Of a stretch of DNA of 64,000 nt, positions 5,905 to 56,063 are shown piece by piece. Positions within the stretch are counted from its first letter, which is position 1. Each line of letters opens with the position of its first letter. The notes beneath the pieces are model-generated. The model searched no databases. It had not been told where the DNA came from and saw only the letters and a program-made list of their open reading frames with translations. The position numbers and the translations under genes are program-made. This DNA is from Bathymodiolus brooksi (taxonomy: Eukaryota > Mollusca > Bivalvia > Mytilida > Modiolidae), in NCBI GenBank assembly GCA_963680875.1, contig OY804586.1, forward strand, positions 55,090,203 to 55,154,202. The letters are read 5' to 3'.

Positions 5905-6455
5905 ACAACGAGTCCGATGGGATGTTAGTGATAATGTATGTCGAGAGCTTTAAAACTTAGGTCATTGTGTTTATCAGTCTGATGAGATGCTAGTGTATGT
6001 CTAGAGCTTTAAAACTGACGTCATTGTGTTTATCAGTCTGATGAGATGCTAGTGTATGTCTAGAGCTTTACAACTGACGTCATTGTGTTTATCAGTCTGA
6101 TGAGATGTTAGTGTATGTCTAGAGCTTTAAAACTGACGTCACTGTGTTTATCAGTCTGATGGGATGTTAGTGTATGTCTAGAGCTTTAAAACTGACGTCA
6201 TTGTGTTTATCAGTCTGATGAGATGTTAGTGTATGTCTAGAGCTTTAAAACTGACGTCATTGTGTTTATCAGTCTGATGGGATGTTAGTGTATGTCTAGA
6301 GCTTTAAAACTGACGTCATTGTGTTTATCAGTCTGATGGGATGTTAATGTATGTCTAGAGCTTTAAAACTGACGTTATTGTGTTTATCAGTCTGATGGGA
6401 TGTTAGTGTATGTCTAGAGCTTTAAAACCGACGTCATTGTGTTTATCAGTCAAGT
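5905..6455 (+). repeat. 59-bp minisatellite, about nine units
   Basis: The unit is AGTCTGATGAGATGTTAGTG, TATGTCTAGAGCTTTAAAAC, TGACGTCATTGTGTTTATC. Units start near 5910, 5973, 6032 and so on every 59 bp to about 6450; the first is diverged. TGACGTCA, a CRE-type palindrome, is intact in six units. Confidence 0.9.
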
Positions 6456-19179: not shown

Positions 19180-20985
19180 TCATGGGGTCAAAATACCATG
19201 GATAGTGGGTCCAAAATACCATGGAAGGGGGTTCGATATACCATGGATAGGGGGTTTGATATACCATGGGTAGTGGGGTCAAAATACCATGGATAGTGAG
19301 GTTGATATACCATGGGTAGGGGGTCAAAATACCATGGGTAGGGGGTTCAATATACCATATATAGAGGGGTTAAAATACCATGGTTAGGGGGTAGTCGATA
19401 TACCATGGTATGGGTGTTAAAATACCATGGATAGGGATCAAAATACCATGGGTAGGGGGTCAAAATACCATTGGTAGAGGGATCAAAAGACCATGGGTAG
19501 GGGGTCGATATACCATGGGTAGGGGAGTCAAAATCCAATGATTAGGGGGGTCAAAATACCATGGGTAGGGGTTTCAAAATACTATGGATGGGTTCGATAT
19601 ACCATGGATAGGGGGTCAATATACCATGGGTAGGGGGTAAAATACTATGAGTAGGAGAGTCAATATACCATTGGTAGGGTGGTCAATATACCATTGATAG
19701 GGGGTTCGATATACATTTTTGCAACATGTGTAGGGGGTCAAAATACCATGGCTATGGGAGTCGATATACCATGGGTAGGGAGTTCACTATGCCATAGATA
19801 GGGGCTGAAAATACCATCGGTAGGGGGGTCGATATGCCATGCGTAGGGCGGTCAAAATTCCATGGATAGGGAGGTCAAATTACCATGGGTAGGGGGTAAA
19901 AATAGCACGGGTAGGGGGTTCGAAAATCCATGGGTAGGGGGTCAAAATACCATGAATAGGGGGTCAAAATACCATGGGTAGGGGAATGTCAAAATCCAAT
20001 GGGTAGGGGGATCAAAATACATTGGTAGGGAAGTCAAAATACCATGGATAAGGGGGGTCAATATGTCATGGATGGAGGGTTCGATATACCATGAGTAGGG
20101 TGGTCAAAATACCATGGATGGTGGGTTCGATATACCATATGGATAGGGGGGTTAATATAACATGGATAGGGGATTCAATATACTATGGGTAGGGGATTCA
20201 AAATACCATGGATAGAGGGGTCGATATACCATAGGTAGGGGGGCCAATATACCATGGGTAGGTGGGGTCAAATTACCATGGATATGGGGTTCGATATACC
20301 ATGGATAGGTGGTTCGATATACCATGGGTAGGGGGACAAAATACTATCGATAGGGGATCAAAATACCATGGATAGGGGGTCGATATTCCATGGGTATTGG
20401 GGGTCAAAGTACCATGGGTTGGGATGTCACAATACCATGGATGGGTTCGATATACCATGGATAGGGGAATCAATATGTCATGGATAGTGGGTTCGATATA
20501 CCATGGGTAGGGGGTCAAAATACCATGGGTAGGGGGCCAGAATACCATGGGTAGGGGGTCGATATACTATGGGTAGGGGTGAAAATTCAATGGGTAGGGG
20601 GTCAAAATACCATGGGTAAGGGTGTCAAAATACCATGGACGGGTTCGATATACCATGGATAGGGGGTCAATATACCATGGATATGGGGTTCAATATACCA
20701 TGGGTAGGGGCAAAATACCATTGGTAGGAGAGTCGATATACCATGGGTAGGGGGGTCAATATACAATGGATAGGGGAGTCAATATACCATGGATAGGGGG
20801 TTCGATGTACATTGTTGTACCATGGGTAAGGGTCAAAATACCATAGGTAGGGGAGTCGATATTCCATGTGTAGGGGGTCAACATACCATGGGTAGGGGGT
20901 TCAATATACAATGGATAGGGGGTCAAACTACCATGGGGAGTGGGGTCGATATACCATGGGTAGGGGTGGTCAATATGTCATGAAC
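19180..20985. repeat. CCATGG minisatellite, about 1.8 kb
   Basis: About eighty diverged units of 20-24 bp, for example AATACCATGGGTAGGGGGTC and TTCGATATACCATGGATAGG. Translations such as PYPWYFDP on the minus strand come from the repeat; the unit length changes and stops interrupt every frame. Confidence 0.92.
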
Positions 20986-44024: not shown

Positions 44025-44053
44025 TATATGGGTGATTTTCAAAAAAATGAAGA
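44025..44053 (+). repeat. 29-bp inverted repeat, left arm
   Basis: TATATGGGTGATTTTCAAAA AAATGAAGA is the exact inverse complement of 52518-52546. Confidence 0.85.
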
Positions 44054-46150
44054 TTTTTCATTTTCAGATAATAATTTGAATATTAATTGATATGAAAGAA
44101 AGGCAAATATCTTAAAACAAGCACAATGGTAACAGTTATCTTCATGCAAAGTGTCACGGAGATTACTCTTCCGGTTAAAAAGTTATCCTCTAAAAACTGG
44201 TCAAATTTGTCAGGGGTGTGACGTTTTAGCGTGACAAACTTTAAATTGCCTTAACTTACCTTGATGATAAAAAAAATAAGATAACAATTATATTAAAGAA
44301 AGATGGTATTCTATAATTTCGTATCATTTTACTTCAAATACCTAGATGTTTTGTGACCTATGATTTTGCAACAATTTTTTTTCTATTTTTTAAATTACTG
44401 TACGTGAATAAAATTAACTTGGAAAATTGTACAAATGTCAAATTAAACCTTAATAGTTTTTCATTGTTGAGACTAATTAGTTCAGAAAAGTCAAAATATG
44501 TTGTATAAAAACATTAGTTATAATAATTTAGTAGTATTAGACTGGATGATTATGATAGTTGTAAAATTGGGCTTGCATAAGGAGAGACACACAAAATGAT
44601 AAGAGTGTGACATTTTATCTTAGTTGTATAGTACTATGTTGTATGCTTTAATAGTTCACAATTTTCTTTATTTTCCAAAAGTTCCAGACCAAATCAAAGA
44701 AAAATGTTGGAAGTAGCTCTGATATATGACATATCATAGCTAGGAAATCAAAATAACTAATGTCAGGAGTGTGACACTTTTAATAGGCATATCTTTTAAA
44801 TAAAAAATAAAATAAACCATGCTTCTACAAACTTCCAATGTTTTCAATTTAATTACATATAAACAATAAGCAATAATTGTAGTATATTTGTATATTGCAT
44901 GACATCTTTCTCATAATAAGTGATGATAAAGGGTTATATTTTCTTAAAACATGACAAAATATTGATTTTTTTTCTAAATGAAAAATTGATGTATGTTGCT
45001 TTAGATAAACAGAATACTTACTTTAATATATCTTGCCTTTAATAAAACATTTTTATTCTTTTGATATAGCATTTTTGAAAATTTATCAATAATTTGTTAT
45101 TCAACAGTAATATGTCACACTCCTGACCTAAAAACATTATATGTCGATTGCAATTGCAGTAGGAAGTTATTTTGCAGAGTAAATTATTGAGAAAAATGGG
45201 GAAACTAATTTGAAAACCACTAAAAAGTAATTTTATACTAAGAAAAGATGATCTATTGCTAGTTTTAATAAATTTCAAATCCATTTTAACCATTTTTGAT
45301 AAGATAAATTCCTAAAGGGCAAATAATTAGCACACTAATCATTAGAAAAAAACAAAAATTTGAATCTTCTTTTAATATTTACTGTTAACTGTAAGAAATA
45401 TAAGCTTTTGAAGAAATATAACTTTAAGAATAAGTTGGTTATATTATTTTCAGCTCAACAGGTTTATTTTCGAGAGGGAGTCAGGAGTGTGACAATTTTA
45501 TTTAAGAAATAGATTATTTTGTAAGCATATAGCCTCCATAAAATGCTTGTAATTGTCTCGGGGAATTATTTAATTCTCAATAAGCACTATACTCTTGAAA
45601 AGATGTATAAATGGTTGAAAATTTATAATTATGATAGAATATGATAAAATATGATTGAAATAACATCTTAGCAATGCAAAAATGAAATATATTCAATGGA
45701 AACCTTTCTTCAGTCAAAATAGATTATGTACTACTACTTAAAAAAGTAATTGTGACCAACAGTGATTGCATTTAGCTTGATATTTGGTGTATTTATCTGT
45801 TAGAAAAATGTGTCAAGAAATGGACAGTATTTTCATTTGGTTACCTCTAGTTTTTACTACCAATGATCAACTTAACTTAACTTTTGTTATATTTATTAGG
45901 CATATATAAATAATTGATTTACAACTATTAAACCCCATTAGATCATATTGTTTATGCTTGTATGAAAACTTTAATTACCAGATTTTTTAAAATATACAGT
46001 AAAAATAGTGTTTCTTTGATATACTGAAACTGTTTTCTCATGATATATACAAAGTTTGGTACCAAAATGTGCCTATTTCATATCATTATTAAATAGAAAC
46101 ACATTTAGGTCTTTTACCATACGCAAACAGAGCTCCAGATAAGGATTCTT
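44054..46150. repeat. AT-rich region with spaced GTCAGGAGTGTGAC motifs
   Basis: GTCAGGAGTGTGAC occurs at 44762 and 45480, inverted at 45114, and as GTCAGGGGTGTGAC at 44209. A partial AAGAGTGTGAC is at 44601. The motif has GTCA/TGAC edges. No exon or transposase frame is seen. Confidence 0.6.
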
Positions 46151-46256
46151 AAATTGGGTTTTTAACTCTCCTGTTTAGCATTTCCATTGGGTGCTTTTAA
46201 ATGCTTTACTTCAAATTTTTCATTCACCAGTATAAGATTCAATTGTTTTTTTTTAC

Positions 46257-46560
46257 CCACCATGAGTAGTATATGGGCACGGACAAAACCATATTTGCGG
46301 AGGTGCTGTGAGGTGCTACCGGAAGTGACGTGACCAGAAGTAGCGTCAGTCACGTGACCGGAAGTGACGTCAATTACGTGTTCGGAAGTATGTGCATTTG
46401 CAACCGGAAGTTGAGAAATATTCGCCCTAGTGGGGCTTTTTGACCGGAAGTGACACAGTCACGTAACCGGAAGAGGCCCTGTCCGGAAGTATGTTCTGCG
46501 CATGCCCCGATTTTTCCCGTGTTTTTTTTCTTAGTAGTTATAACATGGATACCGGATGTG
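46257..46560 (+). repeat. Left TIR of the polymerase-bearing element
   Basis: From CCACCATGAGTAGTATATGG to CATGGATACCGGATGTG, inverse to 50633-50942. It holds seven CGGAAG cores, two of them in ACCGGAAGTGACGT, plus CACGTGACC, GCGCATG and CGCCCTAGTGGGGC. Confidence 0.88.
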
Positions 46561-46791
46561 AGTTCCTACTCAGGCGAATTCCTGACAAAAACGACCGCTG
46601 CGCCTTCACAAGAGGTAGTCGAGGGGAGGTCATGATATTTTTTGAAAAGAATAAGGTCTTGGGAGTTGAACCAAACAGGGTTCTGAATATATTAGAAGGA
46701 ATTTAAAAAATAAACACGACTTGAAGCGAGCGGGGGTAAAAAAGGTGTCCCCCTTGTACATGTTTATACATTGATAGTATATTTACGTGGA

Positions 46792-46876
46792 TAGTGACAA
46801 GGCCTGTGAGTGGTTAAGGCGTTAGACTAGAAATATATTGAGGTTTACCCATACAGGTTCGAATCCTGTCAACGAT
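46792..46876 (+). pseudogene. tRNA-Ser-like sequence (AGA at the anticodon position)
   Basis: The D arm GAGTGGTTAAGGC, anticodon loop CTAGAAA and T arm CAGGTTCGAATCCTG, with a variable arm, resemble serine tRNAs. The anticodon and acceptor stems are mispaired, so it is scored as a pseudogene. A fragment (TTGGGGTCTCCCCCTTCGAATCCTG) recurs at 47004-47030. Confidence 0.65.
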
Positions 46877-47293
46877 TCTAATTTTTTTTTTGGGACCGGT
46901 AATTTATTTTTGATACTGTCGTTACTTTGGATGATGTATCTGCAATAGTGTGTAATTGTTAGAAAGAGGTGTACTTGTAGAATATTATAATCTTAAAAAT
47001 CTATTGGGGTCTCCCCCTTCGAATCCTGTCGACGTCTCAAAATGTTTGGTAGTACAGTGAAAACAAAGAAAAAACATTCGATCTTCTATGTTTGCTTAAA
47101 TTGTAGGTGTGATCATATTTTAGACTTGTTCATTCTGACCATAATGAAGGTTATCATTTTCCTCCAGAAAATAATTTTGTTTAGCGTAAATTCACTGACG
47201 GGAAACCCAAAACTACTTGGACTTTTGCTACACAAATGGATTAATATCCTATCAAATTGTCATTCCACATTGAAACGGAAAAAACAATGTAGC

Positions 47294-47366
47294 CGCCCAT
47301 ACAGGTAGTCGAACCGTAGACCCTGAGATTAAAAGTCTGATGCTCTACCGACTGAGCTACGCGGGG
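47294..47366 (-). pseudogene. tRNA-Lys-like sequence (TTT)
   Basis: 73 nt: GTAGCTCAGTCGGTAGAGC D arm, CTTTTAA anticodon loop in a stem with one mismatch, GGTTCGACT T loop. The T stem and acceptor stem pair poorly (three clear pairs plus wobble), so it is likely inactive. Lies within the TIR element. Confidence 0.7.
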
Positions 47367-47459
47367 TACATACTATGTTAGGCAAATTTACTATCTTTAT
47401 ATCTTATAAGACAGGAATGTAAACATGCACATGCGTTTTATATTTTGTCGCAAGGTTTC

Positions 47460-47740
47460 ATAAAGTGATTGATTGCTGTTTAACGCCAAGTGAACAATTT
47501 CAGTTATGATAACATGTTTTTCTTAATGAAATGATTTCTGTTTTATGGAAGAACTATAGATAGTGCTAGTGAACTGAAACAACAGTCCGCAAGTAGACAT
47601 ATCGCCTCATTCGGTTCCTAACCAACTAGTCTTTCTCCTTAGTGTGTTTAGTGAAGGTTTAGCAAATACAAATTTTATTTTGATCCCATCGGAGATCAAA
47701 CTCACCACCGCAAGGCGAGCCAATTACACCACCGATGTGG
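47460..47740 (-). mobile_element. SINE family C, diverged
   Basis: On plus: GTTTAACGCCAAGTGAACAATTTCAG (tail), GTGAACTGAAACAACAGTCC, CCAACTAGTCTTTCTCCTTA, then the head GGCGAGCCAATTACACCACCGATG. Inserted in the TIR element. Confidence 0.72.
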
Positions 47741-48772
47741 TTAAATAAATGTATATAAAAAAAATCGAACCACCGTATTTCAACGGGGCCTTTTTACTCC
47801 CTTCCTATGGTACCGCGGGATCTATGATACCGCGGTATTTATTTTGTCTGTTTCTATGCACTGCAGCGTCACCCGCCGGTTTTTTTCTATTTATATATTC
47901 ATAAACACAACAGTCACATTTATCAGAACGTCTGGTCATTCTGTCCAAATATCTTGAATTTTTGTAAGTACACGTATTTTTATCTTTTCCTTAGAAATAG
48001 CGGACATTTTTAATTTAACCCTGATACCATGCTTTGTAAAATGTCCACTAATTAAACCTTAGTTGTCATATTTCGTCTGCTATTTTCTAGAAATGTCGTT
48101 CGTTTGTTTACGTTTCATTTCAACCCGTTTTTGGTGTTATTTTTAGTTACTTTCTAGACCGACAAAATTAAGCTATGAAAACATATTAACCAACATAGCG
48201 TTACATCAAATTGACTCAACTTCGTTACATTTGTTATTTCAAAGAAACTTTTTACTTTATTAAATGTGATCAAGATTTTCTTTATGGTATATTAAGTTTG
48301 CCAGATATTCACCTTGATTTAGTATCTATAAACGATGTCTTGATTTGTCAAACATTGTGTCCCATAACATCAATTTTGCAATTACCGCGATTTCATAGGA
48401 AACCATTTCTGGGAGGTACATCGGCGTTGTCATAGGGAAAAGTGACGACGTATTTATAAACAAAGTCAAAGAATAAAATGAATTGTGAGGGAAAATAGGT
48501 TTCTATACCGGAGGAATAAAATATAACATTTTTGGATTAATTCCGAAGACTAGTTACGTTACACAGACGTTAAACATTAAGTACCGCGGTACCATAGAAC
48601 CCCGGGCTATATATTAAAGAAGTTTTAAATCAGATTTTTAAAAAGAAGGCTTAGTTCAGTTTTACAAAACAAAGATTACATGTGCAACATTTCTAAGATA
48701 ATTATCGGACATTGAAAAATATCATGTTTAGAAAGAATGTAATTTCTTAATCTTCTTTCACAAATCCAACGT
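47741..48772. other. Interior of the TIR element, no gene seen
   Basis: Two GGTACCGCGGT-like palindromic words (TACCGCGGGATC at 47811, ACCGCGGTACC near 48582) mark this stretch. A frame at 48211-48435 has no motif. Confidence 0.45.
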
Positions 48773-48938
48773 TTAGAATATCAGTTAGTTGTGTGACGTC
48801 ATAAAAACAGTTTCCCGTGCTTTTTTCAAACGTCGCGACGTTTGACGTTTAAAATATCAGTTAGTTGTGTGACGTCACCAAAACAGTTTCCCGTGGGTTG
48901 TTTTCAAACGTCGCTACGTTTGACGTTTAAAATATCAG
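48773..48938 (+). repeat. 76-bp tandem repeat just before the polymerase frame
   Basis: Two units and the start of a third: TATCAGTTAGTTGTGTGACG, TCA, ...CAGTTTCCCGTG..., CAAACGTCG.. ACGTTTGACG. Each carries TGACGTCA and a CAAACGTCG(C/T)...ACGTTTG near-palindrome. Confidence 0.85.
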
Positions 48939-49547
48939 TTGTTTTTTCTAAAAGACGACGAAGAAAGAGAACGTGAAGAAAAGAAACATCACCTGTACCA
49001 GTTGAAACAGCAGTTGGAACACTACCTACAAGAACTCCCCGTGGTTGGCTTCAATACGGGGAAATACGACGTGAATGCCATGAAGGTGAATTTTTTTACT
49101 CGATTGGTGGACAGTCACAAAATCAAGTATACCGTGAAGCGGAACAACAAGAATACCGGACAGCATATTCGTCACCAGGGTAACGACAATGAGAAAGTGA
49201 TAGTACGTCGGCGCCTTCCAGTAGAAGGATTCTGTAAAGAGACCAACACCGTATACCAGGGCTGTTTATGGCATGGTCATCGATGTTGTATCACCAAGGA
49301 TAAGTCTGTCAACCCCATCAACGGAAAGAGCTTGGACGATATGTGTGAATGGGGACGTCTTAAGAAGCAAGAGCCGGAGCTGAAAGCATTTATCACCGAC
49401 AGACGATCTTGTGATGTGCAGTTTAAGATGACGGAGGAGACCATCCTACAAGCCGTCATGGACGAGAAGTTGTTTGGTGCTTTGGAAGTCGATCTTCACG
49501 TCCCGGATGATTTGAAGCCCAAGTTTACTGAGATGCCCCCAGTATAA
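48939..49547 (+). pseudogene. Family B DNA polymerase, N-terminal fragment (exonuclease motif and middle)
   Basis: The frame opens without an ATG inside the tandem-repeat edge. Residues 36-50 (VVGFNTGKYDVNAMK) fit the second exonuclease motif of protein-primed polymerases. After about 50 residues comes VEGFCKETNTVYQGCLWHGH, a block that in full-length relatives lies far downstream; the part in between, including the first palm motif (the SLYP box), is absent. LFGALEVDLHVPDDLKPKF follows, then a frameshift ends the frame at 49545. Not functional. Confidence 0.82.
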
Positions 49548-50463
49548 CATCGAGGTATCCAGAGACAACATTGGTGACCACATGAAAGCCTATGCAGAAG
49601 AAAAGGGGATCATGAACCAGGAAAGAAGGTGTTTGATTGGAAGTATGTATGGAGAAAATATTATGGTTATTTCACCTTTGCTCGACGTGCCGGGGATGTC
49701 GATCCAGAGAAGAGTGACCGAGACCCGCAAGCTAGATGGAAATTCCAGCTATGGGAAAACAGTCACAAACAAAGAGAGACACACAGGCTTCATTTACTGT
49801 CAAGAGCATCAAGTCATCCGCTATCTCGTCGACCCTTCCTTCCGTCGCTGCAACCAGCTGAGTGACAAGACCTTCGAAGTGGATATGAGAAAGAAGACCG
49901 TTCGACTGGATCTACCCATGCAGATTGGTTGTTTTGTCTACCAGTACGCCAAGCTCCGGATGTTGGAGTTTTACTATGACTTCATGAACGTGTTTGTGGA
50001 TCGTCGGGACTTCCAGTATTGCGCCATGGACACGGATAGTGTTTATATAGCTTTGTCCGCTGGCAGTTTGGAAGAAGTGATCAAACCCGAGATGCAACAG
50101 CGTTACCAGATGGAAAAGAAGAATTGCTTTCCATGTACAGACACCCCACAGTTGGCAGCCTATGACAGGAGAATACCTGGTTTGTTTAAGACCGAATTTA
50201 CGGAAGATGGAATGATTGCCTACTTTTGTTTTGGTGCGGAGGACAAATTTAACTGCAAAGGAGTCAACAGGAAAACCAACAACGTGACAAAGAAGAAGTA
50301 CATGGATGTTCTGCTAACCAAACAGTCTGGATCTGGTACCAACAGAGGTTTCCGTACCATTGATAACCAAGTCTACACATACCTACAGGAAAGAGCTGGG
50401 TTCACCTACTTCTACCCAAAACGGAAAGTCTTTGCAGATGCGGTCTCTACAGCACCATTATAA
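49548..50463 (+). pseudogene. Family B DNA polymerase, palm and C-terminal part
   Basis: From VSRDNIGDHM the frame (49582 on) reads EKGIMNQERRCLIGS, then a compressed, shifted stretch (about 49640-49720; the motif RRAGDVDPEKSD is in another frame). RKLDGNSSYGKTVTN (KxxxNSxYG motif) and CAMDTDSVYIALS (catalytic DTDS) follow, then GLFKTEFTEDG and a proper C-terminal end TYFYPKRKVFAD, TAA at 50461. The catalytic YxDTDS and KNSxYG boxes survive, but a segment just before the latter is missing. In full elements the product copies the element's own DNA from a protein primer. Confidence 0.88.
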
Positions 50464-50632
50464 ATTTGAGGTGAGAGGCTATGTAGTTAACCTATGGTTA
50501 TAGGACGCGGACCTCGTAGAGAACACCCCATGGACCCTTCCGAAGGGGTCACGTGACCTTCGGTCACTACAGGTGTTGCACAAATTCCGGTTGTGCATGC
50601 GCACACCCGAATGGGGTCAAATCACCTTCCGT
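50464..50632 (+). promoter_or_regulatory. Palindrome-rich spacer before the right TIR
   Basis: Contains ACCCTTCCGAAGGGGT, GGTCACGTGACC and a copy of the TIR words TTCCGGTTGTGCATGCGCA. Regulatory role is inferred only from these site-like words. Confidence 0.4.
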
Positions 50633-50942
50633 CACATCCGGTAGCCATGTTACTACTACTAAGAAAAAAAACGCGGGAAAAATCCGGGCATTCGCAGAAC
50701 ATACTTCTGGTCAGGGCCACTACCGGATAGGGCCTCTTCCGGTCACGTGACTTTTTCACTTCTGGTCAAAAGGCCCCACTAGGGCGGATATTGCGCAACT
50801 TCCGGTTGTGCATGCGCAGAACATACTTCCGGATACGTGACTAACGTCACTTCCGGTCACGTGACTGACGTCACTTCCGGTAGCACCTCACATCACCTCC
50901 GCAAATATGGTTTTGTCCGTGCCCATATACTGCTACCATGAA
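50633..50942 (-). repeat. Right TIR of the polymerase-bearing element
   Basis: On the minus strand: TATATGGGCACGGACAAAAC, ACCGGAAGTGACGTCAGTCA, CGTGACCGGAAGTGACGT, TTGTGCATGCGCAG (plus), ending CATGGCTACCGGATGTG. It pairs with the left TIR over the full length with scattered differences. Confidence 0.88.
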
Positions 50943-51159
50943 TAAATTGAATTGGGTCTTTTACTCTCTGTACATGACATGCATTGCTTTTTTGTTGCAG
51001 GTATATAAGGCATTGGAAATTTATACATCCAGTTTTATTCTCCTGATGAACACTATACCGTATTCTTTAAATATTTTTCATTGGTGTAGATGATACGTAT
51101 ATGTAAAGAAAAAATCCTGAGATGGGGTCTTGTCCCGCATTCCCGTTAAAATAAATAGA

Positions 51160-51592
51160 CTATCCCGTTATGTCGATACCTGTTTCTACCTTCACGATCG
51201 ATTTAGCATTCGAAAATTGTTTCTTGTCCACCATGGCACCTTACGTATACTCTCGTGATGGGCGGAGCCTATCCATATATGGATCTGAATGCCAAATAAG
51301 AAAAACGTTACTACGATGCTTTACTACGATTGATCCAAATAACGATATCTCCAAAACGAGGCAAGTGCACGTGAAATAGCAACTTGTAAACAAAATGTCG
51401 GACAGAAAGAAGATTTCATGCATTCAAATTTTCAGGTGGATATAAGTCTACCATGGATTGAAGCAGCGTTTACTTAATACCTCAAGGTTTACCTGAATAT
51501 ATGTATCTTTCACCCCCGTTATTTTTGCCAACCACTTACAACGGAATTAGGACAAACAATCTCCCGGTGTGAATCACTCCGGGCGCTGCTGA
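51160..51592 (+). repeat. Second copy of the 36452-36862 block
   Basis: Shared stretches: TTACGTATACTCTCG, CCTATCCATATATGGATCT, GAAATAGCAACTTGTAAACA, CAACCACTTACAACGGAATT, GAATCACTCCGGGCGCTGCT. The 64-bp TIRs of the 36-kb element are absent here. Confidence 0.82.
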
Positions 51593-51913
51593 TATGCATT
51601 CTGTGCATTGCATATATGGAATACCGTTTTTCTCTACTTTACATAGCCATGGAAATTTTCCTTTCCAAGTGACAAAAGTTTTGATTGTGACTGAATGTTT
51701 CCGTTTCGTTGAATTATTGTCAGTCTTTACTGCCACTTTCAAAATATCGTCAATGAATTCTTTTGCAACAATTTTACTATGATTTACAGCATTTTCAATC
51801 AGCGTATCTAAAATTCGTGTAACCATGGCTATTGAATCTGTCTTTAAATAATTAGCGATAGAATAATTTGCCCGTAAGGCAAAAGGGGCTTTCTTCCTCC
51901 CTCCACGATTCAT
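51593..51913 (-). pseudogene. Zinc-finger/transposase-like fragment cut by a repeat
   Basis: On the minus strand: RGGRKKAPFALRANYSIANY, a helical segment, then TFVTWKGKFPWLCKVEKNGI and PYMQCTEC. The W(x)KFPWL...MxCxxC pattern resembles the TTF-type zinc finger in hAT-related and ZNF862/KIAA1586-like proteins. The frame is cut exactly where the 51160-51592 repeat begins, so the rest is lost. Similarity is by eye. Confidence 0.4.
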
Positions 51914-52322
51914 AATAATAGATTAAAACCGCTACCAAATTAATTTCAAGGCAAACAAGGCTAAATTCTAGCAGGGAACCGAATTTATTTCCTCCGAATT
52001 CTGTGGAGCACCTTAAGTGGAGTCAATATTTGGAACTCCTCGCACCCTTAGTTAGAAGTAACGGATCCCATCAGAACTATACATCGGCAAACCTCGGGAG
52101 ATTTGTAATCTTACGAGTGTTGACGAGTGAAAGAGAAAGTAAAATGTCATGCAACAGAAATCATACGTCTTTACGATATGCTTTAATTATGCAACTACAT
52201 AAACATGAATGAGTGAAGTAAGCACTCATTAAACGAAGAATTTGATTATATCTGGATGGAATTGGGTTCAACAACGCAACGGAAATGAAAAAATTGGGTT
52301 TTTGCTAATTTTATTTGCGCAG
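51914..52322. other. No gene seen
   Basis: Intron-like sequence before the exon at 52323. No motif. Confidence 0.4.
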
Positions 52323-52366
52323 CTTATCTGGAGTTCTGCCCAAAAGAAAATGATACCTCTGAGGAA
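52323..52366 (+). CDS. Candidate exon 2 of the unidentified host gene
   Basis: Acceptor TTTATTTGCGCAG and strong donor GTAAGT enclose 44 nt. With one base carried in it reads (A)-Y-L-E-F-C-P-K-E-N-D-T-S-E-E and ends in phase 0; with none carried in it reads LIWSSAQKKMIPLR and ends with two bases. Both are open. The first fits the exon at 35173. Confidence 0.5.
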
Positions 52367-52517
52367 GTAAGTCTCTATTTGTTATCATTTTAACACTTTG
52401 TTGCATATATTGCACTGAGCAACTGAATCTGAAAAATATATCATATTGACATTATTTTACGACCAAAATTATGTCAATTTGTCCAATTTGAAATTTCACC
52501 CTCTATGTCACACAAAG

Positions 52518-52546
52518 TCTTCATTTTTTTGAAAATCACCCATATA
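52518..52546 (-). repeat. 29-bp inverted repeat, right arm
   Basis: The exact inverse complement of 44025-44053. Just inside, ATGTCACACAAAG resembles the GTGTGAC words near the left arm. Confidence 0.85.
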
Positions 52547-54114
52547 TCGGTTTGTGACTTCTTACTTACTGTCTGTTAATGTGACTCATGAAAATGAAAA
52601 AAACAAAAACGGCAGATTATACATGTTAAAACACTATTTCTGCAAGTATACTATCGATAGGGACACCCTATTTTGGGGTAGTTATTCGTTGTCGTTCATC
52701 TGTGGACACATTGATTTGTGTGCATTTACTTATTCTAGTTGACCAATTTTGCATTATGTTTTACCCTTGTCCGTCTGTCTTTCCCTCCATCATGTTTTGG
52801 TTTCCCTTCAATAACTTGAGTTTGCTTTGGTCAAATGTTTTGAAATTTGGCTGTGTTAAAAATCGCAAAAGGTCTGTCAACTTTGATTTAGGCAAGAGTG
52901 GGGCATCTGTGTCCCATGTTCACCTTTGTTTCATTTGATTATATTTTTTGCTGGTAAAATACAGAATTAAAATGCATGTGTAAATTTGCTGACCGACTGA
53001 TCTCACATCAGTATGCATGGGTCAACAACTGCCATACAATTTATTTTTGATTAAGGTGTTCCATGATTGTTGAGCCACTTCTTAAACATTTATAGAGCGT
53101 AAGAATAAGTTACAAAATGTACAACAACAAATACCGAAGTTGGAGAAAAAAGATGGCTTTATAAGATACAATTCCAAAAAGTTGACCATAATATATGTGA
53201 AAAGTGGAAACTGGAAATTATACAGACTTCTAATAAATTAGCAAAATTGTTGTTGTTATTTAATGTCAAACTTCTTTGCTTCATGACTCAATTGTTCGTA
53301 AAGTGTGTATTCTAAGATTAACACCATGTAAAGGCTTAAAATCTAGTACACTTTCACATAGCTTTGTGTGATGATTACAAAATATTTAAATTTGTTTCTT
53401 TTTCCTGTGTTTTTTCCCCTTGATTTAATTGATAATCATAGATTTACTGGTCACCTCTCCCACAATGACAAAGGAATGAATTGATCCACATCAACACAGG
53501 CCGTGTTCACACTGATTATGTGAAACATGTTTTGTGTAAACAACTGAATGCGTTTGCTTATTTCTACATGTAAATAATCAATACTTTTACCTGTAATGTG
53601 TTATTTATTGAATACAATGTACTAAAATTAAAGAACATTTATATATTTCATTTGATTAAAGCTAGATATTACAATTCTTAAAAAGGCCATGTCAAGGTAT
53701 GTTGATTGCTTAACAAGAATTATAACTTGCTGTGTTTAACATCACTCACTCAATACATTGTACATAGAAAACTTTTAAATAGTCAAAATAAGAATTTTAC
53801 TTGTGAACAGAAATTATACTAGGTCACAAATCAAATTTTAGGATATAAGAAAAGAAAGTGTGACAAACAGTAGTCTGCACAAAGGCATTTTTGCTTGTTT
53901 TTTTTCCACTAGTCAAGTTTGCTAAAGTTGCAGAATAATACATATTTGCAATATCATTCCAAGGGAATGGGAGTTACAGTAACCATTATAGCTATTAGTT
54001 AAATCCTGTCCATTTTGTGTTTGCTGTCAGTACTATGCCAATCAAATTTTAACGCAGTATAATTCCATGGAATGATTTTGATAATACATTGTGCATTTGA
54101 TTTTCTTTCTTCAG
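52547..54114. other. Intron-like sequence, no gene seen
   Basis: 52750-52935 resembles the interior of the 15780-16210 repeat (CTTGTCCGTCTGTC, TAACTTGAGT, TGTTTTGAAATTTGGC). The rest is AT-rich. Confidence 0.45.
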
Positions 54115-54214
54115 ATGTATGAGTAATGGACTGATGGCCGGGATGAACATGAACAGAAGGGCAAGAAGGATAAATTCCCTTTTGCAAAGTCATGCTTATT
54201 TAAACCAATCAAAG
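54115..54214 (+). CDS. Candidate exon 3 of the unidentified host gene (two readable frames)
   Basis: Acceptor TTTTCTTTCTTCAG and donor GTTAGT enclose 100 nt. In phase 0, the phase expected from exons 35173 and 52323, codons are M-Y-E-TAA, then W-T-D-G-R-D-E-H-E-Q-K-G-K-K-D-K-F-P-F-A and KSCLFKPIK, leaving one base that fits 56064. Carrying two bases instead gives the fully open CMSNGLMAGMNMNRRARRIN and SLLQSHAYLNQSK, ending in phase 0, which fits 58869. Confidence 0.5.
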
Positions 54215-54249
54215 GTTAGTGATTATTATTAAGATTGTAATTATGTCTC

Positions 54250-55470
54250 CCCTTCGAATGAAGGGAGACATTTTGTTTTAGTCTGATTTTTTCTTCCTCT
54301 TCTGCTTCTTCTCAGTGAAGCTTGTCCGGACCATAACTTTTTTTGTCTTTCCAGATCGGTCAATTATATTTGGTATGTGGGTGCATGACCATAAGGCGGT
54401 GTGTCGCATACCATAATGACCTTCGTGGGACCTTGACCTTTGACCTCAAGGTCAAATAATTGTTTTTTAAATAGTATTTATTTGGTATGTGGGTGCATGA
54501 CCATAAGGCGGTGTGTTGCATACCGTAATGATCTTCGTGGGACTTTGACCTCAAGATCAAATAATTGTTTTTTAAATAATATTTTATTGTCCAGGCCATA
54601 ATATTTTTGTCTTTCGAGATAGGTCAATGATATTTGATATGTGGGTGCATGACCATAAGGCGATGTGTCGTGCACCGTAATGACCTTCGTGGGACCTTGA
54701 CCTCAAGGTCAAATATTTGTTTTTTAAATAATATTTTCTTGTCCGGACCATAACATTTTTGTCTTTCGAGATAGGTCAATGATATTTGATATGTGGGTAC
54801 ATGACCATAAGGCGGTGTGTCGTGTACCGTAATGACCTTGACCTTTGACCTCAAGGTTAAATAATTGTTTTTTAAATAGTATTTATTTAGTATGTGGGTG
54901 CATGACCATAAGGCGGTGTATTGCAAACCGTAGTGGCCTTCGTGGGACCTTTACCTTTGACCTCAAGCTCAAATAATTGTTTTTTTAAATATTATTTTCT
55001 TATCGGGCCATCACATTTTCGTCTTTCGAGATAGGTCAATGACATTTGGTATGTGGGTGCATGACCACAAGGTGGTGTATCGCGTACTGTAATGACATTC
55101 GTGGGACCTTTACCTTTGACCTCAAGGTCAAATAATTGTTTTTTGAATAGTATTTATTTGGTATGTGGGAGCATGACCATAAGGCAGTGTGTCACATACC
55201 GTAATGACCTTCGTGGGACTTTGACTTCAAGGTCAAATAATTGTTTTTAAATAGTATTTTCTTGTCTGGGCCATACCATTTTTGTCTTTCGAGATAGGTC
55301 AATGATATTTGGTATGTGGGTGCATGACCATACTGCGGTGTGTCGCATACCTTCGTGGGTCCTTGACCTTTGACCTCAAGGTCAAATAATTGTGTTTTTA
55401 AATAGAATTTTCTTGCCGGGCCATAATATTTGTATCTTTCGAGATAGGTTGTTGAACAGATGGCCGCATT
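54250..55470. repeat. Tandem array rich in TTTGACCTCAAGGTCA
   Basis: Alternating units of about 110 and 180 bp: GTATGTGGGTGCATGACCAT, AAGGCGGTGTGTCGCATACC, TGACCTTCGTGGGACC, CAAATAATTGTTTTTTAAAT, CCATAACATTTTTGTCTTTC. The core TTTGACCTCAAGGTCA or a one-base variant occurs eight times. Minus-strand frames (YATHRLMVMHPHTK) are by-products. Confidence 0.88.
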
Positions 55471-56063
55471 TAGGTGAAGCATAAGTTTTAGTTTTGTTTA
55501 TGATTTTCAAGAATTTACTTAAGTAATAGTATTTACAAAGTTTATTCTTTTCATTTTGATTGTGATGTTCTTCAAGTAAAATCTTTAATAAGTATATCTT
55601 ATAAAAAGTTAGCATTTAATTTGATAATCTAATAATTGATTGTGTTATTGGACACTATGCAAATATTAAAATTATTAAAACATTTTTTAGGAGGGGAGGG
55701 GGTATTTGTAGTGAATTTTAAGCGGTAGCAGTGAAATTTACATGGTGCTTTATTTTCTCCTAAAAAATAAACAAATCCAAATAAAAAATATATAGATTAA
55801 GGTCTAAGGTAACTACAGTAGCTGCAGTCTTGTGTACCTAGTCATTTCAATTTTGTTGGCATACACATTAAAGAAATGAGAACAAGTTGGATATTATGTG
55901 AACTCAGATATGTTTCAGATATAAAGACTAACATTTCAATTTGTGATTATTTGAGTGCAACAGAAACCATTCACTTAAACCAAATGTGTATTAAACTTCA
56001 ATTAACGTGTGTGTTCAGGTATATATCCGAAATAGTTATAGAAATTTTTATTTTTACTTTCAG
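55471..56063. other. Intron-like sequence, no gene seen
   Basis: AT-rich, with a G-rich patch at 55690-55702. Confidence 0.45.

Follow-up and report, generated by a model that had tools for sequence, protein, structure and literature searches.

A 64,000-nucleotide stretch of the mussel Bathymodiolus brooksi genome (GCA_963680875.1, contig OY804586.1, positions 55,090,203 to 55,154,202, forward strand; below, the window) contains a 4,670-bp element at 46265–50934 whose terminal inverted repeats (TIRs) are arrays of words resembling host promoter sites. The element is dead and non-autonomous, and derives by deletion from a Maverick/Polinton family abundant in this genome. As judged from the analysis below, its TIRs are probably compact platforms for host transcription factors, acting as promoter and/or replication enhancer and resembling the inverted terminal repeats (ITRs) of adenovirus.

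The left TIR contained CCGGAAGT five times and TGACGTCA and CACGTG (E-box) once each; the right TIR contained them four, one and two times. First-order Markov shuffles gave expectations per TIR of 0.009–0.013, about 0.003 and 0.11–0.14, respectively, far below these counts, so the possibility that the words do not exceed chance did not hold; the single E-box of the left TIR alone was not significant (p 0.13). Part of the count came from a 24-bp unit repeated 2.8 times in the left and 2.4 times in the right TIR, and the words are thus not independent. Among 35 TIR copies from the same genome (two of them the window's own and four segmental duplicates), CCGGAAGT was present in all (mean 5.2 vs 0.015 expected), TCACGTGA in 34 (1.63 vs 0.007), GCGCATGC in 32 (1.8 vs 0.005), TGACGTCA in 24 (0.89 vs 0.008) and the whole 15-mer CCGGAAGTGACGTCA in 18. 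CGGAAG pointed inward in all 219 of its occurrences in these TIRs, and the words (sequence words only) began about 50 bp from the terminus. By consensus, GCGCATGC, TCACGTGA and TTTCCCGC are NRF1-, USF- and E2F-type sites. The original prediction, made from the letters of the window, had named ETS, cAMP response element (CRE) and E-box sites; these stood, but the set was incomplete, as there were also words of NRF1-like type and, in part of the copies, of E2F-like type.

The predicted identity of the ETS-CRE composite as a known animal promoter motif was borne out: it is the GABP-alpha/CREB motif, bound cooperatively by GABP-alpha and CREB1 (PMC3464117, PMC4555227). In the human genome, 226 copies of its 11-mer core were reported, with 83% falling inside known regulatory regions (PMC3464117), and ETS, NRF1, CREB/E-box and YY1 belong to the nine elements described as cardinal in human proximal promoters (PMC3820735). 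In the 2.0-Gb B. brooksi genome CCGGAAGTGACGTCA occurred 1,214 times and its reversed control once. Fifteen of these sites were sampled along C1 (C1, C2 and C3 denote sequences of this genome, and L-numbers stretches of it, each ≤10 kb): ten had an AGT-type terminus 54–133 bp upstream, four further ones lay within TIR-like sequence of 55–96 bp, and one (L064) matched little beyond the site. Among 99 listed C1 sites, neighbours 0.6–10 kb apart faced inward 13 times and outward twice (random mean inward 5.2).

The element is laid out as follows (window coordinates).

46259..46264, no strand: target-site duplication (TSD), left copy, ACCATG (from the sequence and a paired-terminus scan)
46265..46561, + strand: left TIR, with an (AGT)2-type terminus and then, inward, the array of ETS, ETS-CRE, E-box and NRF1-like words; at its inner end, after the array, CCCGTG-polyT-CTTAGTAG and ACATGG
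46324..46390, + strand: tandem 24-bp unit (E-box, ETS, CRE), 2.8 copies, in the left TIR
46562..48760, no strand: interior without recognised gene
48769..48940, + strand: 76-bp tandem repeat, 2.2 copies, with two TGACGTCA sites, directly 5′ of the polymerase remnant
48939..49547, + strand: family-B polymerase remnant, first piece, open reading frame (ORF) of 202 aa
49582..50463, + strand: family-B polymerase remnant, second piece, ORF of 293 aa
50499..50503, no strand: deletion junction, with polymerase 3′-flank-type sequence before and TIR-type sequence after
50632..50934, − strand: right TIR, TIR-like sequence extending inward to about 50499
50935..50940, no strand: TSD, right copy, ACCATG (from the sequence and a paired-terminus scan)

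The left end is AGTAGTATATGGG and the right end, read inward, AGCAGTATATGGG. The long TIRs have AGTAGT and AGCAGT ends, the 5′-AG-type terminus of Mavericks/Polintons, and ACCATG stands twice as their 6-bp TSD; vertebrate Mavericks/Polintons have the same end motif and likewise a 6-bp TSD (PMC8097293). The element coordinates given in the original prediction were correct to ≤8 bp, the termini being 46265 and 50934 with the TSD outside both. Aligned with each other, the TIRs (297 vs 303 bases) were 91.1% identical excluding gaps, with three gap blocks of 15, 5 and 16 bases. At 4,670 bp the copy falls below the 12–25 kb of Mavericks/Polintons and was therefore classed among deletion derivatives rather than full members. 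Pieces of its interior recurred in L036 and L041 (86–89%) and, inverted, in L045 (85–90%). A tRNA-like sequence was seen inside the element (47298–47361, − strand) and likewise at L036:2474–2551 (30.5 and 35.2 bits; Rfam cut-off 29); ARAGORN called no tRNA, including at these places. The element is enclosed by a 33-nt inverted repeat, 97% complementary and 8.5 kb apart (44025–44057 and 52514–52546). Elsewhere in the window, a GC-skewed 23/46-bp satellite lies at 19184–20973 and a 59-bp satellite, its unit containing TGACGTCA, at 5935–6451.

When the left TIR was used to search the genome, 1,523 first-look candidates appeared, and the 40 of them that were scored yielded 45 matching stretches. 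The terminus pattern had 571 exact copies in the genome and its reversed control none, so the possibility that such TIRs would be found only once did not hold. Nine of 30 stretches examined (some overlapping or duplicated) had paired ends flanked by identical 6-bp TSDs, the elements being 1.4–7.3 kb long. These nine represent seven independent insertions, as L031 duplicates the window locus and L046 duplicates L044; one of the seven (L049) has a weak TSD, TATATA, that sits in a TA repeat. L042 had paired ends with one TSD mismatch and is doubtful, its ends not aligning as TIRs, and L038 had paired ends without a TSD. A 14.4-kb copy (C1:61134933–61149372) had the TSD AATGTG and contained polymerase matches, and its two ends agreed at 97.6% over 167 bp. 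The segmental duplicate L031 lies about 400 kb from the window locus and is about 96% identical to it, including flanks. The duplicated segment covers 44761–55866 of the window, perhaps further, on the same chromosome; alternatively, the two are haplotypes in the assembly.

Genes absent from the window copy were found inward of related TIRs. An integrase (rve) was detected in L036 and L040, and rve with a chromodomain in L050. A packaging ATPase was detected in L036 (Adeno_IVa2, 1.3e-4, just above cut-off), and L050 gave a candidate for the same gene (Pox_A32, 0.0015, below cut-off). L040 encodes a 437-aa relative of double-jelly-roll (DJR) capsid proteins, which itself has scallop and mussel-associated relatives. 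Its capsid identity is by homology only: the homologue P0173 (56% identical) matches PF21738 at 1.5e-7, and neither the L040 protein nor its relatives P0146, P0147 and P0219 matched that family. Several other ORFs in L036, L040 and L050 received no assignment. Only one element end was seen in each of L036, L040 and L050, because the stretches were ≤10 kb. Together, the TSD, the AGT ends and the integrase, ATPase and capsid-type genes found inward of related TIRs make the predicted Maverick/Polinton origin close to certain. By eye, the L036 ATPase (L036:4568–5347) has a zinc-finger-like N-terminus. Inside the TIR element of L036 there is also a histone 3′ untranslated region stem-loop (L036:1742–1787, RF00032, E 2.7e-8); no nearby histone ORF was recognised by eye.

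The original prediction held that only a polymerase gene remains inside the element. The polymerase was confirmed but not an intact gene: the 202- and 293-aa ORFs are two broken pieces of one truncated, internally deleted family-B polymerase, beside some 2.2–2.4 kb without recognised gene and the 76-bp tandem repeat. The first piece has lost its 5′ part and lacks the motif A-like stretch found in L061. The second has a motif B-like KLDGNSSYGKT and a motif C-like DTDSVY, both conserved among relatives, and an internal deletion near residues 35–42, where relatives have extra sequence. Relatives numbered 257 at E ≤ 0.001, and among the best 120 of these the named ones were from echinoderms and a mollusc. 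The remnant itself matched no Pfam family; of ten relatives tested eight had no match to DNA_pol_B_2 (PF03175), and matches among the relatives were weak (P0090, 8.6e-6, just under cut-off; P0109, 0.0056; P0078, 0.0083). The polymerase profile found no PDB chain and a sequence search of PDB gave nothing usable, PHROGs gave one weak match of unknown function, and a viral contig collection, searched with two patterns and the polymerase piece, held no related locus. A structure model of the 293-aa piece (mean predicted local distance difference test score 42.8) was not used. Sister polymerase families have open frames of 1,395–1,430 codons (eight places among the matches listed); one sister polymerase, in L062, has by eye a zinc-finger-like N-terminus with splice-like signals upstream.

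The polymerase 3′ flanks of L057–L059 match the window up to about 50503 and then continue into another gene. On the element's right side, TIR-like sequence extends as far as about 50499 and there adjoins the polymerase 3′ flank, indicating that the short gap between polymerase and right TIR is a deletion junction. The gene after the polymerase stop in L057–L059 has CCAAT boxes and a TATA-like stretch ahead of it, and gave a weak CARD match in L059, the only one tested (E 0.057, below cut-off). Ten polymerase 3′ flanks (L051–L060) had no such TIR within 0.6–0.8 kb, the element ends lying beyond.

The link between TIRs and polymerase was seen from one side more clearly than from the other. A terminus lay within 10 kb of four of the seven listed polymerase loci (random placement, 0.032; the terminus list covered C1, C2 and C3 up to 42.9 Mb), so the possibility that the TIRs always occur without a polymerase did not hold; yet when 20 stretches were taken inward of TIR matches, only two contained polymerase sequence, namely L031, which duplicates the window locus, and L032, where the piece is short and inverted. 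At a fifth polymerase locus (L061) the terminus was inexact, and two loci, at C1:11.46 Mb (sister-type polymerase) and C3:14.32 Mb, had none within 10 kb. A start codon at the TIR inner end driving a conserved ORF was considered and rejected; ACATGG was present in 24 of 35 copies, but the frames were mostly short and differing. The TIR of L061 does adjoin polymerase, but the piece it meets is an internal one and its ATG is in another frame, which was taken as a deletion junction.

Six polymerase-near termini were compared (two of them the ends of one element; five chosen by terminus and polymerase, L061 via its 15-mer). They contained CCGGAA 23 times (expected 1.7; six of six termini), TGACGT 11 times (0.9; three), GCGCATGC ten times (0.0; four), the E2F-like TTTCCCGC six times (0.08; four) and CACGTG three times (0.6; two). 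Past base 45, seven representative TIRs aligned at 0.37–0.67 (matches/longer length) vs 0.38–0.61 when shuffled. Divergent TIRs shared common words in different order and with different spacers.

Several results weigh against a function of the words as such. Between left and right TIRs, mismatches fell on 42 of 708 word bases and 93 of 1186 other TIR bases (p 0.14; words taken from either side; L031, L046 and L042 left out), and 23% of random recurrent word sets were as well conserved within elements. A first left/right test with strong word conservation (p 0.0003) was dropped as biased, because words had been defined on one side only. Conservation between copies differed little (0.90 for words and 0.86 for other TIR bases, one-sided p 0.037), the array is partly a simple 24-bp tandem duplication, and the TIR copies are related by descent. 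Exact words are few in the 14.4-kb polymerase-bearing copy, where inward CGGAAG is absent at one end and occurs twice at the other. The ORFs nearest the TIR point towards it in L040 and L050; those of L036 point away but begin some 4 kb inside. CCAAT and TATA were not enriched in the TIRs. Cardinal elements seldom co-occur in human promoters (PMC3820735), which makes an array combining them all atypical for a promoter.

One alternative is a neutral expansion, by which a GC- and CpG-rich TIR was duplicated in short tandem units and amplified, the words hitchhiking. Such an expansion would account for the 24-bp unit and for the absence of significant extra word conservation within elements, and blocks of a common ancestor shuffled by duplication could equally give shared words in changed order. 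It is harder to reconcile with words recurring across lineages while order and spacers differ, and with ETS words at all six polymerase-near termini, though TGACGT was at only three, NRF1-like words at four and the E-box at two; we regard it as unlikely. Transposases bind arrays near the ends of other transposons, and the words might accordingly be subterminal repeats for an element-encoded protein (an integrase, a terminal protein or one bearing zinc fingers), their likeness to host sites being secondary. Same-direction repeats near both ends, again the 24-bp tandem units, and the zinc-finger-like N-termini of the L036 ATPase and the L062 polymerase fit that explanation. A single element protein would, however, be expected to favour one word, whereas several unrelated words are present, each matching a different well-known host site (among them NRF1, USF and E2F by consensus), and the overlap within the ETS-CRE fusion is exactly that of GABP-alpha/CREB (PMC3464117, PMC4555227). 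We hold it to be slightly less likely still than neutral expansion.

That the TIRs are host promoters or enhancers, co-opted and retained by the host, appears very improbable. The genome has very many copies of a composite that in human is mostly regulatory (PMC3464117), but no copy was tied to a host gene in this analysis, in which host genes were not looked at, and the sister locus reflects segmental duplication rather than a conserved insertion.

The reading favoured here is the TIR as a platform for host factors. The terminal ~45 bp would be the probable integrase and replication end. The array behind it would recruit factors of housekeeping-promoter type, namely ETS/GABP with CREB on the overlapping composite, and presumably USF at the E-box, NRF1 and at times E2F, these three assignments following consensus sequences. 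The bound factors may keep the ends open and drive inward transcription, and/or may stimulate protein-primed replication from the terminus, as at adenovirus ITRs. Gene-less copies could spread by being served in trans, because both of their ends carry terminus and array. From sequence, binding of host factors to the TIRs in vivo seems rather likely, promoter activity has close to an even chance, and a role in replication is less likely than not.

Similar arrangements are known from other systems. Adenovirus ITRs have a terminal core followed by host-factor sites, including the ATF site TGACGT, and host factors aid replication there (PMC2685984). The present TIRs share that order, with words only in place of demonstrated sites, and would likewise belong to linear DNA with a putatively protein-primed polymerase; they differ in the multiple copies of ETS-CRE, E-box and NRF1-like words and in being integrated. 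Adenovirus ITR elements reportedly also promote transcription, by the title of a 1991 study by Hatfield and Hearing. Virophages and endogenous mavirus-like elements are likewise selfish, with TIRs and with promoter motifs matching those of the machinery that serves them, but theirs match giant-virus promoters and stand upstream of genes (PMC8547959), whereas here animal-host words stand in the TIRs. Human ETS-CRE housekeeping promoters have the same exact C/GCGGAAGTGACGTCA overlap (PMC3464117, PMC4555227); the site is in host promoters there and part of a mobile array here. With Mavericks/Polintons the window copy shares the 6-bp TSD, (AGT)2 ends, TIRs of some 300–700 bp and a family-B polymerase remnant, and family copies add an integrase with chromodomain, an ATPase and a DJR-capsid relative. 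Unlike them, the window copy is 4.7 kb long with a broken polymerase only, and its TIRs are host-promoter-word arrays. A clam genome table has a Maverick row with 7,091 and 6,453 copies, its columns not identified (PMC8905726). Polintons are ordinary in bivalves; the apparent novelty lies in the promoter-like TIR arrays: as the original prediction supposed, no description of such arrays in Polinton TIRs was found among the titles and abstract openings listed by a literature search outside the subscription journals.

More tentatively, and at somewhat less than an even chance, this lineage took host housekeeping-promoter grammar as its TIRs. A small vocabulary (ETS, exact ETS-CRE, E-box, NRF1 and at times E2F) would have been shuffled and multiplied while the intervening sequence turned over, scattering most of the ~1,200 GABP/CREB composites; host factors would drive its gene-less derivatives as well as the element itself, which could seed promoters. 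If the TIR ends are host-promoter mimics, the activation of Polintons in animal cells would be testable with ordinary data from the assay for transposase-accessible chromatin (ATAC) or from cap analysis of gene expression (CAGE). The persistence of gene-less copies would be explained, a parallel to adenovirus ITRs would be found in a related lineage of elements, and one origin of new promoters in mollusc genomes would be identified.

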